This document shows positions 47,796 through 53,032 of a DNA stretch of 62,271 nucleotides, one piece after another. Below the pieces are notes generated by a model. That model was given only the letters and a program-made list of their open reading frames with translations, was not told where the DNA came from and did no database searches. The DNA lies in the IMG/VR virus record IMGVR_UViG_3300032307_000095, positions 1 through 62,271 of that record; one strand, written 5' to 3'. The position numbers and the translations under genes are program-made. Position 1 is the stretch's first letter. Each line of letters starts with the position of its first letter. The DNA comes from a virus.

Positions 47796-48392
47796 ATGGC
47801 TTACCCCACCGTTTCGGCACCCTATGGCTTGCAACCTATCAATCGTATTGATGGCATGCCATACGCAGGTGCAATCCGTCAGATTCCCGTAGCTGCTGGC
47901 TTCGGCACCGCCATTTTTGATGGCGACACCGTTTTGCTCAACAGCGATGGTTATCTGGTCAAATCCACCACAACCAACTCCGGCGGCATCGTTGGCGTTT
48001 GCGTTGGCGGTCAGTACGTGAACTCGAGCGGCCAAACCGTTCAAGGTCAGTACATCCCCGCTCTGGCATCTACTTCCAGCAACTTGGCTTACGCCTACGT
48101 TGTGGATGATCCAATGGCTCTGTTCAAAGTCGCTGTCGTGACTTCGGGCACTACTATGGGCACCGCTGGTCGTACCGTTGTTGGCTCGAACCTTCCTTTG
48201 GTTCTGAACGCTGGCAGCACTAACACCGGCAACTCCGCTTTCGCCGTCACTTTGACTGGCGCTGGCACTACTGCCACTATCCCTGTGCGTGTTATCGATG
48301 TTGTGCCAGAAACAGCTACTGCTGCTGACACATACACCGAGCTGTTGGTGAAAATCAACACACACCAGTACAACGACACCACTGGTGTTTAA
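47796..48392 (+). CDS. Head decoration-like structural protein
   Basis: This 198-residue protein starts MAYPTVSAPYGLQPINRIDG and is beta-rich and Gly/Thr/Ala-rich throughout. Directly preceding the capsid gene, this form is typical of capsid decoration or cement proteins in podoviruses. RBS and spacing to the capsid gene (10 bp) suggest strong co-expression. Confidence 0.75.
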   Translation: MAYPTVSAPYGLQPINRIDGMPYAGAIRQIPVAAGFGTAIFDGDTVLLNSDGYLVKSTTTNSGGIVGVCVGGQYVNSSGQTVQGQYIPALASTSSNLAYAYVVDDPMALFKVAVVTSGTTMGTAGRTVVGSNLPLVLNAGSTNTGNSAFAVTLTGAGTTATIPVRVIDVVPETATAADTYTELLVKINTHQYNDTTGV

Positions 48393-48402
48393 GGAGTAAA
48401 AC

Positions 48403-49311
48403 ATGGCTATTTCACGCGCACAACTGCTGAAAGAACTGCTCCCCGGCTTGAACGCTTTGTTCGGCCTTGAGTACGCTAAGTACGGCGAGCAGCACAAGGA
48501 AATCTACGAGACCGAGACTTCGGAGCGTAGCTTTGAAGAGGAAACCAAGCTGTCTGGCTTCTCCGCCGCTCCGGTGAAGAACGAAGGCGCTGCCATTGCT
48601 TATGACAATGCGCAGGAAGCATGGACTGCACGTTACACCCACGAAACCATCGCGATGGGCTTCTCCATCACCGAAGAGGCCGTGGAAGATAACTTGTACG
48701 ACAGCCTCTCCAGCCGCTACACCAAGGCTCTGGCCCGTGGTATGGCTTACACCAAACAGGTCAAGGCAGCAGCCATCCTGAACACAGGTTTCACCGCTGG
48801 CGTAACTTACGGCGACGGCGTGACTTTGTTCTCGACTGCTCACCCTCTGGTCTCCGGTGGCGTCAACAGCAACCGTCCTGCCACAGCAGCCGACTTGAAC
48901 GAGACTTCGTTGGAAAACGCCGTCATTCAGATCGCAGCTTGGACAGACGAACGCGGCCTGCTGATCGCAGCTAAGCCTAAGAAGCTGGTGGTTCCTCCAT
49001 CGCTGCAATTCGTTGCAACCCGCTTGTTGGAAACTGATCTCCGCGTTGGCACTGCTGACAACGACATCAACGCCATCAAGAACAACGGTTCCATCCCCGG
49101 TGGTTATACAGTCAACAACTTCTTGACTGACACCAACGCTTGGTTCCTGTTGACTGATGTGCCCAACGGCCTGAAGCACTTTGTTCGTACCCCGCTGTCT
49201 AACAGCATGGACGGCGATTTCGATACAGGCAACGTGCGTTACAAGGCTCGCGAGCGTTATTCGTTCGGTGTGTCTGACCCACTGGGCGTGTACGGTTCTC
49301 CCGGCGCTTAA
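48403..49311 (+). CDS. Major capsid protein
   Basis: This 302-residue protein has a helical N-terminus (residues 1-30) with the acidic stretch ETETSERSFEEE, an E-loop-like region with FSITEEAVEDNLYDSL, a central VVPPSLQFVATRLLETD block and a C-terminal YSFGVSDPLGVYG. It resembles gpT-like and HK97-fold capsid proteins of similar phages. Strong RBS (AAGGAG) and a terminator immediately after fit high expression. Confidence 0.88.
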   Translation: MAISRAQLLKELLPGLNALFGLEYAKYGEQHKEIYETETSERSFEEETKLSGFSAAPVKNEGAAIAYDNAQEAWTARYTHETIAMGFSITEEAVEDNLYDSLSSRYTKALARGMAYTKQVKAAAILNTGFTAGVTYGDGVTLFSTAHPLVSGGVNSNRPATAADLNETSLENAVIQIAAWTDERGLLIAAKPKKLVVPPSLQFVATRLLETDLRVGTADNDINAIKNNGSIPGGYTVNNFLTDTNAWFLLTDVPNGLKHFVRTPLSNSMDGDFDTGNVRYKARERYSFGVSDPLGVYGSPGA

Positions 49312-49330
49312 TCCCTCGGGATTATTTGAG

Positions 49331-49358
49331 AAGGCCCCCTTGTGGGGCCTTTTCTTTT
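49331..49358 (+). terminator. Rho-independent terminator after the capsid gene
   Basis: AAGGCCCC and GGGGCCTT pair as an 8-bp stem with a 5-nt loop and are followed by a T-rich run (49350-49358). It should attenuate read-through from the capsid gene. Confidence 0.88.
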
Positions 49359-49375
49359 GGGTTATATTGCACCAA

Positions 49376-49434
49376 CCCCGGACTTTCCGGTGTATCTGAC
49401 GGCTCCGGGCCGACATCATGCAGACAGATACGCC
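49376..49434 (+). ncRNA. Candidate structured leader RNA
   Basis: Two structures can be drawn: a hairpin CCGGA-CTT-TCCGG (49378-49390), and a 10-bp helix between 49389-49398 and 49425-49434 (one G-U pair) that encloses a small CGGC/GCCG hairpin (49400-49412). The two share a couple of bases and could be alternatives. A TATATT box at 49362-49367 lies just upstream. The element forms the 5' leader of the gene at 49457. Confidence 0.5.
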
Positions 49435-49456
49435 TTAACCGCATGAGGAATACATC

Positions 49457-49990
49457 ATGGCTCTGACTACTTTCCAAGGCCCAGTCCGTTCATTGGCTGG
49501 CTTCATCACCCAAGGCCCAGCTTCTATTGTGAATCTGGCTAACGGTACAAACACCGTGACTCTGGATGTTGCCAACTACGCTGGCAAGACCATCCGCACC
49601 AACGACGCTACGCTGGTCATCACACTGCCCACCATCAATGCCACACCTAACCCTGTGACATCTGGCCCCGGCCAAGACCCCAGCACTTCCAACAACGTGG
49701 GCACCAGCTATACGTTTGTGATCGAGACTGCCGCCACTGCCGTGGCTATCAAGACCGATGGTACAGACAAGTTTGTTGGCTCCATCTTGATGGTTGCCAC
49801 TGACGCTGCTGGTGCCACTACCGGCTACGCTCCTGCTGCAGCCAATGACGTGATCAACTTGAACGGCACCACCACTGGCGGAGCTGCTGGCTCCGTGATC
49901 ACTGTGACTGTGGTGGCTGCAAACAAGTACATGGTTACCGGCACTTTGCTGGGTTCTGGCACTGTTGCCACACCATTCGCTGACGCTTAA
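49457..49990 (+). CDS. Hypothetical virion protein, beta-rich
   Basis: This 177-residue protein is Thr/Ala/Gly-rich and almost wholly beta-strand in pattern. It has its own leader and a terminator after it, so it can be expressed independently of the capsid gene. It may be a decoration or fibre-like head protein; no family was recognised. Confidence 0.75.
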   Translation: MALTTFQGPVRSLAGFITQGPASIVNLANGTNTVTLDVANYAGKTIRTNDATLVITLPTINATPNPVTSGPGQDPSTSNNVGTSYTFVIETAATAVAIKTDGTDKFVGSILMVATDAAGATTGYAPAAANDVINLNGTTTGGAAGSVITVTVVAANKYMVTGTLLGSGTVATPFADA

Positions 49991-49997
49991 TTGATCT

Positions 49998-50015
49998 CAG
50001 GGGCTTCGGCCCCTG
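49998..50015 (+). terminator. Hairpin with TTCG tetraloop
   Basis: CAGGGGC and GCCCCTG form a 7-bp stem with a TTCG loop, right after the stop at 49990. Only a weak T run follows (CTTTA), so it may be a leaky terminator or an mRNA stabiliser. Confidence 0.65.
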
Positions 50016-50033
50016 CTTTACAGGAGATTGATT

Positions 50034-50327
50034 ATGGCAATGCAAACCGACGTAAGGTCCGTACGCACTGGTGGCGCTCAGACCAATCAGGCGCTTATTT
50101 CTGGCCGAGTGCGCATTAAATCTGTGATTATCACTGGTGGCGCTGGCGCAGGCACAGCTCGATTCTTGGATGCTGCTGGCGGCAATTTGCTGCTTGAACT
50201 AGACACCGGATCGAACTCCAATATGACTAACGTTATTCTGCCCGGAGAGGGAATTTTGTTCCCTAACGGCGTCTGGTACACAGCCACTTCGGTGGTGCCT
50301 ATCGGTGTAACGGTGGTTTATGGCTGA
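50034..50327 (+). CDS. Hypothetical virion protein
   Basis: The ATG at 50034 (MAMQTDVRSV) has a CAGGAG Shine-Dalgarno and gives 97 residues. The protein is beta-rich (RVRIKSVIITGGAGAGT, ITLPG-like strand VILPGEGILF). It resembles small head or tail decoration proteins. It overlaps the glycosyltransferase start by 8 nt. Confidence 0.75.
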   Translation: MAMQTDVRSVRTGGAQTNQALISGRVRIKSVIITGGAGAGTARFLDAAGGNLLLELDTGSNSNMTNVILPGEGILFPNGVWYTATSVVPIGVTVVYG

Positions 50328-51069
50328 AGAGACACGCCCTATGGATGTTGCAGGTCGCAAACTAATGGTTGCGATCCCCGCCTACGACGGCAAGTTGAAC
50401 ATCAAAACTTCTTTTGCCTTGGCCGATTTGGTGGTCAAGGCATCGCAGTTTGGTGTCCAAGTGCAACTGTCGCATCTGTCGGGCTGCTCTCTTATTACCA
50501 AGGCCAGAAACATTCTGGTCGCCAACTTCTTGGAGTCGGACTGCACGGACTTTTTGTTCGTAGATGCCGACATCGTGGTGGACGCAGAGTCTGTGCTTCG
50601 CCTGCTGGCGCTGAGCACTGGCAAGGACATCACAGCCGGGATGTACACCCGCAGAGCTGAGGACCGAAAGTTCTTTTTGGACATCTACATCGACGAGGCC
50701 AACACGCTTGAGTTCGACCAGCACGGTTTGCTGCGGGTTGAGAATGTGGCTACAGGCTTCATGATGATCCAGCGTCATGTGCTGGAGAAGATGGTTGCCA
50801 ACCACCCTGAGTGGACATACTTCAATGACGTGTACAACCGCAACGAGGCCGCGCTGTTTGACTTTGAACTGGTCAACGGGCAGTATGTTGGCGAGGACTA
50901 CACGTTCTGCAAGCGTGCACGCGCAGACGGTTTCACGGTCTTTGTTGACCCCGAGATCACCTTGCCGCATGTTGGCTCGCAGGAATACCACCGCAGCTTC
51001 AAAGAGGCTGTGTTGATGCCGCTGATCGAGCAGCACTGCACTCCCAAACTGAAAGTCGCCAATGGCTAA
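50320..51069 (+). CDS. Glycosyltransferase, GT-A/family 2-like
   Basis: This 249-residue protein has a GT-A fold pattern: VAIPAYDG at 17-24, then KARN (61-64) and the DxD metal/nucleotide-sugar motif VDAD (81-84). A VGEDYTFCKRA motif later provides the likely catalytic acid. It would transfer sugar from a nucleotide donor to a protein, DNA or cell-surface target. It is co-transcribed with virion genes, so virion or host-surface glycosylation is possible. The substrate is not known. Confidence 0.8.
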   Translation: MAEETRPMDVAGRKLMVAIPAYDGKLNIKTSFALADLVVKASQFGVQVQLSHLSGCSLITKARNILVANFLESDCTDFLFVDADIVVDAESVLRLLALSTGKDITAGMYTRRAEDRKFFLDIYIDEANTLEFDQHGLLRVENVATGFMMIQRHVLEKMVANHPEWTYFNDVYNRNEAALFDFELVNGQYVGEDYTFCKRARADGFTVFVDPEITLPHVGSQEYHRSFKEAVLMPLIEQHCTPKLKVANG

Positions 51070-51317: not shown

Positions 51318-51566
51318 ATGGAATTGCCAGTCTGGAACACCGTCCTGTCGTTTGCTTCGGCGTTGCTTTTGTTTTGGGTGAAGATTTCCCATGACGAAGT
51401 CAAGCGCCTGTCGATCTTGCTGAGCAAGACTCGGGAAGAAAATTCAGACAAGTTTGTGACCAAGCAGGACATGCACAACGATATCAACCGAGTAATCACT
51501 CGTTTGGATCGGCTTGAGAGCAAGATTGATGACTTCATGAAGGAGCAACGAAGTGCCATCAACTAG
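51318..51566 (+). CDS. Small membrane-anchored coiled-coil protein
   Basis: The ATG at 51318 gives 82 residues: an N-terminal hydrophobic helix (VLSFASALLLFWV) and a coiled coil (DINRVITRLDRLESKIDDFM). The form resembles small phage membrane proteins near lysis or virion genes. It overlaps the next gene by 14 nt. Confidence 0.7.
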   Translation: MELPVWNTVLSFASALLLFWVKISHDEVKRLSILLSKTREENSDKFVTKQDMHNDINRVITRLDRLESKIDDFMKEQRSAIN

Positions 51567-51939
51567 CAAAAAACAACATAATTTCATGGCGGCGGTGGCA
51601 AACAGCCCGTCTTTTGCCAAGAAAGCAGGCGTCCCACAGTCCGTGGGCAAAGAGTTCTTAAACGCGGACAAGGGCCGCAAATTTAAAGAAGGTGGCGATA
51701 TGAAATCCGAAAGCATGATGATGAAAAAAGAAGGCCGCAACATGGCTAAAGCCGACTTGGCAAAACACGCTGCAATGCCTGCATCCAAGGCTCACAAAGG
51801 CCTGAAGGCTGGCGGCTCTGTTGGCACAACCAAGATGGGCATGGTCAAGACTGCTGCTCCTAGCCGTGATGGCGTTGCGACCAAGGGTAAAACCAAAGGC
51901 ACAATGATCAAAATGGCCCGTGGCGGCAAAACCTGCTAA
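51553..51939 (+). CDS. Small basic Lys/Gly/Met-rich protein
   Basis: This 128-residue protein is Lys-, Ala- and Met-rich. It ends with TKGTMIKMARGGK, a motif echoed at the end of the next protein (TKGTMVKMAYGGK). The N-terminus (KKQHNFMAAVANSPSFAKKAG) is compact. It may be a DNA- or capsid-binding small virion protein; no named family. Confidence 0.75.
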   Translation: MPSTSKKQHNFMAAVANSPSFAKKAGVPQSVGKEFLNADKGRKFKEGGDMKSESMMMKKEGRNMAKADLAKHAAMPASKAHKGLKAGGSVGTTKMGMVKTAAPSRDGVATKGKTKGTMIKMARGGKTC

Positions 51940-51948
51940 GGAGTTGAC

Positions 51949-52164
51949 ATGAGTCCAGCAGAAAAAGAAGCTCGCCAAATGATGGCGGACAAGAAAGCTG
52001 CAGAGGCCGCCGAAAAGGCGTACAACGCAGCCAGCAAAACAGCTCCAGCGCCAGCGGTCAAGAAGGCCAAGGGCGGCAGCGTAACGCGTGCCGATGGCTG
52101 CATTACCAAAGGCCACACCAAGGGCACCATGGTTAAGATGGCCTACGGCGGCAAGGCTTTCTGA
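51949..52164 (+). CDS. Small basic protein, paralogue-like C-terminus
   Basis: This 71-residue protein has an Ala/Lys-rich helical start and the C-terminal motif TKGTMVKMAYGGK shared with the previous gene. The two may derive from a duplication. Virion role guessed from position. Confidence 0.72.
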   Translation: MSPAEKEARQMMADKKAAEAAEKAYNAASKTAPAPAVKKAKGGSVTRADGCITKGHTKGTMVKMAYGGKAF

Positions 52165-52165
52165 C

Positions 52166-52414
52166 ATGATGGCGAGCCGCGGCATGGGGGATATCGCCCC
52201 CTCAAAGATGCCCAAAGGTGTGCGTAAGGCTCGCCGGGATGACACCGACTTCACGCAATACGCTGAAGGCGGGAAAGTTGGTCTGTACGACAACATCCAT
52301 GCAAAGAGAAAGCGAATCGCCGCTGGTTCTGGTGAGAAAATGCGCAAGGTTGGTAGCGCTGGCGCTCCGACTGCGAAAGCATTTGCTCAATCGGCCAAGA
52401 CTGCAAAGAAGTAA
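52166..52414 (+). CDS. Small basic protein (YAEGGKV type)
   Basis: The ATG at 52166 gives 82 residues with TQYAEGGKVGLYDNIHAKRKR and a Lys/Ala-rich end, a pattern recurrent in small proteins of uncultivated aquatic phages. Function unknown; probably virion-associated. Confidence 0.72.
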   Translation: MMASRGMGDIAPSKMPKGVRKARRDDTDFTQYAEGGKVGLYDNIHAKRKRIAAGSGEKMRKVGSAGAPTAKAFAQSAKTAKK

Positions 52415-52417
52415 ATC

Positions 52418-53032
52418 ATGACCACATCAGACGAATACCTAGCAGGCCTCTTTGATGGAGAGGGGTGCGTTTCTATGCACCTTGCAAAAGCCGGTTACGT
52501 ATCCGTCCATGTCAAGGTTTCAATGTGCGACCGCGCACCAGTGGCTGCTTTTTTTGCAAGATTCGGCGGAAGCATGTCAGACGGCCAGCAGATTACCAAG
52601 ACAGGTAGGCATGTCTACACGTGGTCTGTATTCAATGCCGAATGTGTTGAGGCGCTGCGTGTTTTTTCTGGGCTGTGCTTGGTTAAAAATGCTGTTGCTG
52701 CCGCAGCACTTCCAACCGCCGAAAGCATGGCAAACAATCCCACTCGCGGAGTTTTGTCGCAAGCAGAAAAAAGCGCTCGCGTAGAGGCTGCGAAGTTGAT
52801 TGCCAGAATTAACAAGCCTGTTGGAAAGCGCCGCATATTTGATGCTGGTTTGGTTGATGCATACATGACCCCAAAGAAAATGGGCGGAGGCAAAAGAGTT
52901 CGCCTATCTGATGGTCGTGTTTTTGAGACAACGCTTGCCGCAGCAGAAGCTCTTGGTGTGTCCATTTCTGCGGTATCCTTTGCCAAACGCAAGGGAACCC
53001 GTACAGCGGGCTTATTGGTGGAGGCCGCATGA
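52418..53032 (+). CDS. LAGLIDADG homing endonuclease
   Basis: This 204-residue protein has one LAGLIDADG motif (YLAGLFDGEGC, residues 8-18), so it probably acts as a homodimer. The C-terminal 40 residues hold a helix-turn-helix-like module (TTLAAAEALGVSISAVSFAK) similar to NUMOD1 units. It stands between virion genes with a 4-nt overlap to the next, as free-standing homing genes do. The metal-binding Asp of the motif is kept as D/E, suggesting activity. Confidence 0.85.
   Translation: MTTSDEYLAGLFDGEGCVSMHLAKAGYVSVHVKVSMCDRAPVAAFFARFGGSMSDGQQITKTGRHVYTWSVFNAECVEALRVFSGLCLVKNAVAAAALPTAESMANNPTRGVLSQAEKSARVEAAKLIARINKPVGKRRIFDAGLVDAYMTPKKMGGGKRVRLSDGRVFETTLAAAEALGVSISAVSFAKRKGTRTAGLLVEAA

Follow-up and report, generated by a model that had tools for sequence, protein, structure and literature searches.

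Positions 49378-49446 of the viral DNA analyzed here (all 62,271 nucleotides (nt) of IMG/VR virus record IMGVR_UViG_3300032307_000095, called the window) are, judged from hundreds of relatives, a conserved knotted RNA of four helices, labeled P1 to P4, located between the major capsid protein gene and the next gene. We consider it quite probable that this RNA is the 5' leader of a capsid-spike gene and acts in cis as a clamp on the start of translation. Comparison of sequences establishes the helices, the genomic place of the leader, its association with the gene downstream and the match between P3 and the region where translation starts. The original prediction for this region had described a structured leader of the next gene, and covariation in relatives together with the persistence of the leader beside its downstream gene bears this out. 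Helices P1 and P3 and the hairpin P4, whose loop joins P1, go beyond that prediction.

Architecture and conservation of the leader

From 5' to 3' (a and b denote the 5' and 3' strands) the elements are P1a, P2a, A-C, P4a, P1b (within the P4 loop), P4b, G-A-C, P3a, G-A, P2b, P3b, the Shine-Dalgarno (SD) sequence and the start codon, all on the + strand. P1 pairs CCGGA (49378-49382) with 49404-49408. P2, which pairs 49389-49398 with 49425-49434, is the 10 base pair (bp) helix of the original prediction and is exact in the sequence, with nine Watson-Crick pairs and one G-U. P4 is a 4 bp hairpin at 49400-49412 (49400-49403 with 49409-49412), and its loop, UCCGG (49404-49408), is the 3' strand of P1. 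P3 shows covariation and pairs UCAUGC (49416-49421) with GCAUGA (49441-49446), the latter sharing its last two bases with the start of the SD, GAGGA (49445-49449), which was identified from the sequence. In an alignment of 62 leaders described below, the conserved core consists of A-C at 49399-49400 (A in at least 90%, C invariant and closing P4), G-A-C at 49412-49414 (G and C invariant, A in at least 90%, the G being the closing base of P4) and an invariant G-A at 49423-49424, just before the 3' strand of P2. P1 crosses P2 and P4, and P3 crosses P2; the architecture is a chain of pseudoknots, beyond what a nested fold can show. The folding energy of the leader was mildly unusual (z -2.27, with one of 200 shuffles equally good), and energy-only folding recovered P2 and missed the knot.

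A search with the capsid protein yielded 80 IMG/VR loci, and downstream of the capsid stop codon the same layout recurred in the relatives with altered letters. Leaders of the window type were then collected with a descriptor script and a separate core-only scan. The script gave 219 candidates, of which 36 failed a spacing filter; two true leaders were restored and three false ones removed by hand, resulting in 182 leaders, a minimum for the class. The covariation analysis used 62 distinct leaders aligned with MAFFT on sequence only; the loci had been selected by the script, and the alignment received no structural input. Two-sided changes were found in 22 of 24 pairs. The fraction of cells that paired was 87.5%, against 66.4% in shuffles and 26-42% when the partners were slid by one to three columns, and 310 cells contained two-sided changes as compared with 92.8 in shuffles. 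In P2, for which a check on compensatory changes had been proposed, nine of the ten pairs changed on both sides and 92.3% of cells paired. The three aligned pairs of P4 formed in every cell, the middle one using four pair types. Unpaired cells fell mostly in P1 and P3 and were due in part to one-column shifts in the alignment.

P1 and P3 were also examined in leaders found by the core pattern, which involves no selection on the partners of these two helices. Of 118 matches, two were truncated at contig ends and 109 were distinct. The CCGG-G partner of P1 was present in all 109, while the partner of P3 followed the choice of A or G without exception (CATAC with GTATG in 27/27, CATGC with GCATG in 82/82). 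In addition, a covariance model restricted to P2 and P4 was applied to 87 sources (68 hits) and then to 56 others (25 hits); it found a single site in the window. The held-out set consisted of 24 hits, namely 22 of the 25 from the second run plus L024 and L035 from the first, neither of which was used in the model. P1 formed at least four pairs in 24/24 of these (17.7 when shuffled) and at least five in 22/24 (6.4), and P3 formed at least five pairs in 22/24 (5.9 when shuffled) and at least six in 20/24 (1.5). Among named phages, no close DNA relatives of the window leader were found.

Across the 182 leaders the SD lies directly after P3 in 148, overlaps it in 20 and follows 1-5 nt farther on in 13, with one leader left unassigned. 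A subgroup of window-type leaders (L026, L050, L053 and L010) has the P3 strand CCTCA paired with TGAGG, and in these P3 covers the SD itself.

The original prediction also included a first hairpin, at 49378-49390. It can be folded in the window, but across the 62 leaders its pairing (63.3%) equals that of shuffles (62.6%). A cruder partner-shuffle test did give a 4-nt match in 40 of 60 leaders against 21.5 expected; among leaders whose P1a is without CCGG, the match occurred in only 8 of 27. By these comparisons the hairpin appears to be lineage-specific at most. The alternative folds suggested for the leader exist on paper, in that this 5' hairpin would compete with P1, but the hairpin itself is not conserved across the family.

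Other forms of the leader at the same locus

A search of Rfam produced nothing above chance at the window leader, and a few near-matches with low E values in the leader region fell on the terminator described below and were rejected as chance matches. L062, L066 and Roseobacter phage CRP-902 are without a window-type leader and carry the Rfam motif Mu-gpT-DE (RF03012) instead; examples are L202 (3996-4048) and L062 (3966-4017). Weinberg 2017 is reportedly the likely source paper of this motif, which Rfam lists as Gene; sRNA. When 21 records were searched with RF03012, two passed, both carrying the Mu-gpT-DE form; the window leader did not reach the gathering threshold and was unmatched at E <= 10, and L055 and L074 were likewise unmatched. 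At other places in the window RF03012 scored weakly (14.7 bits or less), and these scores were discarded as noise, the same search having scored in 13 of 14 control genomes.

The two forms share their place 3' of a Mu gpT-like capsid gene (PF10124 in the window), a next gene that usually begins M-x-TTFxGP, the core A-C-[hairpin]-G-A-C-strand-G-A-helix with its G-A before the closing strand, as read from the alignments, and a strand at the position of P3 that pairs with the initiation region. They differ in that the RF03012 model is 53 nt long with two nested helices, one of them a short CCUG/CAGG helix around the hairpin. The window type lacks that short helix; its P2 is a 10 bp helix of other sequence that encloses P4. 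It also adds P1, and it has a long, freely varying P2, a P4 of 3-4 bp and a P3 placed before or on the SD rather than on the start codon. By the Rfam threshold the window RNA falls outside Mu-gpT-DE, although its position, core and logic mark it as a relative of that RNA.

RF03012-type leaders were collected by a pattern scan, and members of the capsid family were upstream in 111 of 120 such loci. In this form P3 takes in the start codon of the next gene and the codon after it, and P2 covers the SD. Among 124 distinct copies, the strand that precedes P2b fits the start region without exception: GCC with [AU]UGGC in 79/79, and ACC or CCC with AUGGG in 45/45. Exact five-base matches numbered 75, against 37.3 in shuffles (largest 51). 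A quick capsid tree with 146 rows offered 13 contrasts on starred branches, and the start-region pairing held in all 13 (p 0.00024); the form of the leader switched at least six to eight times. The structure line given by Rfam for RF03012 has no start-codon helix. As far as the available part of one source goes, the Rfam and ZWD versions of Mu-gpT-DE differ and more covariation exists (PMC7657543). Our literature search, which did not cover the probable source paper of Mu-gpT-DE, turned up no account of the window type and none of a pseudoknot at the start codon in Mu-gpT-DE.

A third form was recovered with the capsid protein of pelagiphage HTVC027P as the query (80 loci, L432-L511; example L432, 3962-4052). 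There were 46 distinct leaders with a recognizable downstream gene, and the others were left unclassified. All 1011 cells of its 22 pairs were paired, and 13 of the 22 pairs showed two-sided change. Its P3 covers the SD in 46/46, as CCTAG/CTAGG in 42 and as CCTAA/TTAGG in 4. An Rfam search of this form gave no match at E <= 10. The core bases are common to all three forms, with the qualification that the pattern used to collect the Mu-gpT-DE form itself includes them. In every form the end of P3 lies in the initiation region, but its exact target differs: the window type has it next to or overlapping the SD, the pelagiphage form at the SD itself and the Mu-gpT-DE form at the start codon.

When 193 capsid loci were labeled by form, 95 had the window type, 67 had the Mu-gpT-DE form, 23 had none and 8 were cut short. 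Inspection of the 23 showed five that were window-like by eye (L372, L373, L380, L381 and L398), one of the third form (L200) and two sub-threshold window-type hits (L329 and L341).

Genomic place and the downstream gene

The major capsid protein gene (48403-49311, + strand, 302 amino acids; Phage_capsid_4, Mu-like gpT) matched PF25209 (1e-16) and PF10124 (2.8e-9) in Pfam and PHROG 371 in PHROGs. A relative of this capsid protein is encoded upstream of 180 of the 182 window-type leaders, and the remaining two have just 402 and 823 nt of upstream sequence. The gap from capsid gene to leader exceeds 400 nt in 44 of the 182, and the leader still precedes the downstream gene. Searches with eight of these inserts against Pfam gave one GIY-YIG match and one methyltransferase match, and three of them compared with PHROGs gave one homing endonuclease and two endonuclease VII matches. 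Since the leader keeps its place before the downstream gene despite the inserts, it belongs to that gene. Homing endonuclease or endonuclease VII-like genes lie between the capsid gene and the leader in L004, L007, L020 and L046.

The terminator and the TATATT box after it that the original prediction described were both found. An intrinsic terminator of 11 pairs for the capsid transcript lies directly 3' of the capsid open reading frame (ORF) at 49328-49354 (+), and the box, which by its sequence is -10-like, is at 49363-49368 (+), ending 9 nt 5' of P1a. This spacing is repeated in 108 of the 182 window-type leaders (7-9 nt in 137/182). A -10-like box also precedes the other two forms, at 8-9 nt in 73 of 127 leaders of the Mu-gpT-DE form and at 6 nt in 35 of 51 of the third. 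The conserved box and its spacing point to a putative leader promoter and a putative transcription start near 49372-49377, at P1 or a few bases 5' of it, and in all three forms the message would start at the edge of the structure. The attenuator function once suggested for this leader is not supported, because the only terminator-like site found in 48000-51000 is upstream of it.

The downstream gene (49457-49990, + strand) encodes 177 amino acids with the N-terminus MALTTFQGPVRS. It had no match in Pfam or PHROGs. An AlphaFold2 model built with 27 sequences (predicted local distance difference test score 81.5) was searched with Foldseek, and the sole match in the PDB at E <= 0.001 was the capsid spike of Pseudomonas phage Pa223 (9ny6_C; 4.2e-4, template modeling (TM) scores 0.44/0.27). 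Based on this model the product is probably a capsid spike or decoration protein. The equivalent gene of Phage DSL-LC04, which has the same type of leader, is annotated as 'cement protein'. Among 172 downstream proteins, the N-terminus was M-x-[ST]TFxG(P) in 136, THLGPW-like in 22, TTxxxWRS in 10 and of other kinds in 4, and the bodies fell into 14 groups at E < 1e-10. The window protein and its homologues share the short N-terminus TTFxGPV and have very different bodies, resembling swappable spikes on one anchor.

Farther downstream, several adjacent small ORFs at 51553-52414 have common endings such as TKGTMIKMARGGK, and one of them matches virion structural proteins in PHROGs. The ORF at 52418-53032 contains a YLAGLFDGEG motif, matches a PHROG HNH endonuclease (3.9e-13) and has a sub-threshold hit to Pfam Hom_end; by these sequence similarities it is a probable homing endonuclease.

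Possible action of the leader

We suggest that the capsid transcript terminates at 49328-49354 and that a new message begins at or just before P1. P1, P2 and P4 would fold around the fixed core (A-C, G-A-C and G-A) into a scaffold that holds out P3a, and once the ribosome-binding site had been transcribed, P3a would zip onto it to form P3. Closed P3 would hinder the 30S subunit and its opening would permit translation, so that spike synthesis would be throttled, or timed apart from that of the capsid protein. We infer this effect on translation, and any trigger for it, from the sequences. The matched changes, which in the Mu-gpT-DE form include the second codon, are not explained by coding or DNA-level constraint, but are by a clamp on the start of translation. 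A protein-binding leader, also suggested in the original prediction, is possible. One guess, to which we give some weight without favoring it, is that a virion or host protein binds the conserved core as the trigger; a constitutive throttle is about as likely.

A rather unlikely alternative, though one to be taken seriously, is that the knot stabilizes a strongly expressed virion message by shielding its 5' end against decay and keeps the SD just beyond a firm structure, which would favor translation instead of blocking it. The structure does occupy the whole leader between the presumed start and the SD, and in 148 of the 182 window-type leaders P3 stops next to the SD without covering it. However, the third and Mu-gpT-DE forms cover the SD or start codon with matched changes that a pure stabilizer would not need, and P3 also overlaps the SD in the 20 window-type leaders noted above.

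Autogenous feedback, in which the product of the downstream gene binds the leader as an operator, would have a precedent in the T4 gene 32 leader pseudoknot (PMC3014915, from the portion available) and would be in keeping with the N-terminal motif common to 136 of the 172 downstream proteins. Nevertheless, the 14 groups of bodies and the THLGPW and TTxxxWRS N-termini occur behind the same leader type, and members of one body family stand behind leaders of the window type as well as of the Mu-gpT-DE form (L250, L258 and L431). Feedback by the product itself is therefore disfavored by the variety of the downstream proteins, and we consider it unlikely.

Pseudoknots beside ribosome-binding sites are found in other systems. 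The SAM-II and preQ1-II class riboswitches are small pseudoknots adjoining or including the SD, and the alpha operon ribosome-binding site (RF00140) is pseudoknotted and controls translation. A compact pseudoknot with invariant unpaired bases beside the SD, as in SAM-II-like switches, might suggest a small-molecule riboswitch with the fixed core as its binding pocket. This is very improbable, as the leader is always at one phage structural locus (180/182) and never before metabolic genes, no Rfam riboswitch model matched, and its core and gene context differ from those of SAM-II and preQ1-II. RF00140 has no significant similarity to the window leader and has a different topology; it gave one chance-level match, in L074 (8.8 bits, E 4.5). 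A trans-acting small RNA, the type under which Rfam files RF03012, or a processing or self-cleaving site, the former part of which the original prediction had raised and for which we found nothing in favor, is also very improbable, as no terminator separates leader from gene and the structure travels with the gene and runs into the SD or start codon, a conserved fit that points to translation.

The nearest functional precedent, by analogy, is the T4 gene 32 leader, which is likewise a phage 5' leader pseudoknot linked to translation and is described in a review as perhaps the sole viral example used in autoregulation (PMC3014915). That leader has one H-type knot, with gp32 binding from 67 nt upstream of the start codon, whereas the window leader has several crossing helices, the last touching the SD.

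Several observations weigh against a translation-start clamp. In most window-type leaders P3 merely abuts the SD, which may not block the ribosome, and the window P3 (-6.5 kcal/mol) is about equal in strength to the SD:anti-SD pairing (-6.3); such similar strength may be what a tunable clamp would need, which is no proof of one. Fifteen of the 193 capsid loci are without a recognized leader (L001, L019, L051, L057, L060, L061, L063, L075, L079, L199, L203, L204, L347, L348 and L376); several of these stop before the next gene or carry inserts, and three (L199, L203 and L204) belong to named phages that infect other hosts. Since leader and gene may move as a unit by recombination, the capsid-tree contrasts are not wholly independent and carry less weight than their number suggests. 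A sigma-70 scan recognized no promoter and no -35 box near the leader, and the identity of the spike hangs on one Foldseek match with modest TM-scores.

Should the clamp reading be right, the leader would be a compact natural translation switch and would offer a handle on the phage spike:capsid ratio, which phage leaders seldom address. An orphan Rfam motif gains a testable role and a larger, structurally richer family, and the class is found ahead of a gene for capsid decoration in aquatic phages that are abundant, those of Roseobacter and Pelagibacter among them. We tentatively propose, on evidence that we regard as nearly balanced, that these leaders are one ancient phage RNA class, the capsid-spike leader, that has three or more forms among freshwater and marine phages. 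The clamp would slide between the SD edge, the SD and the start codon as the forms swap at the locus, Mu-gpT-DE would be a truncated and mis-typed view of it, and the core may sense a virion or host protein in order to time or dose the decoration of the shell.
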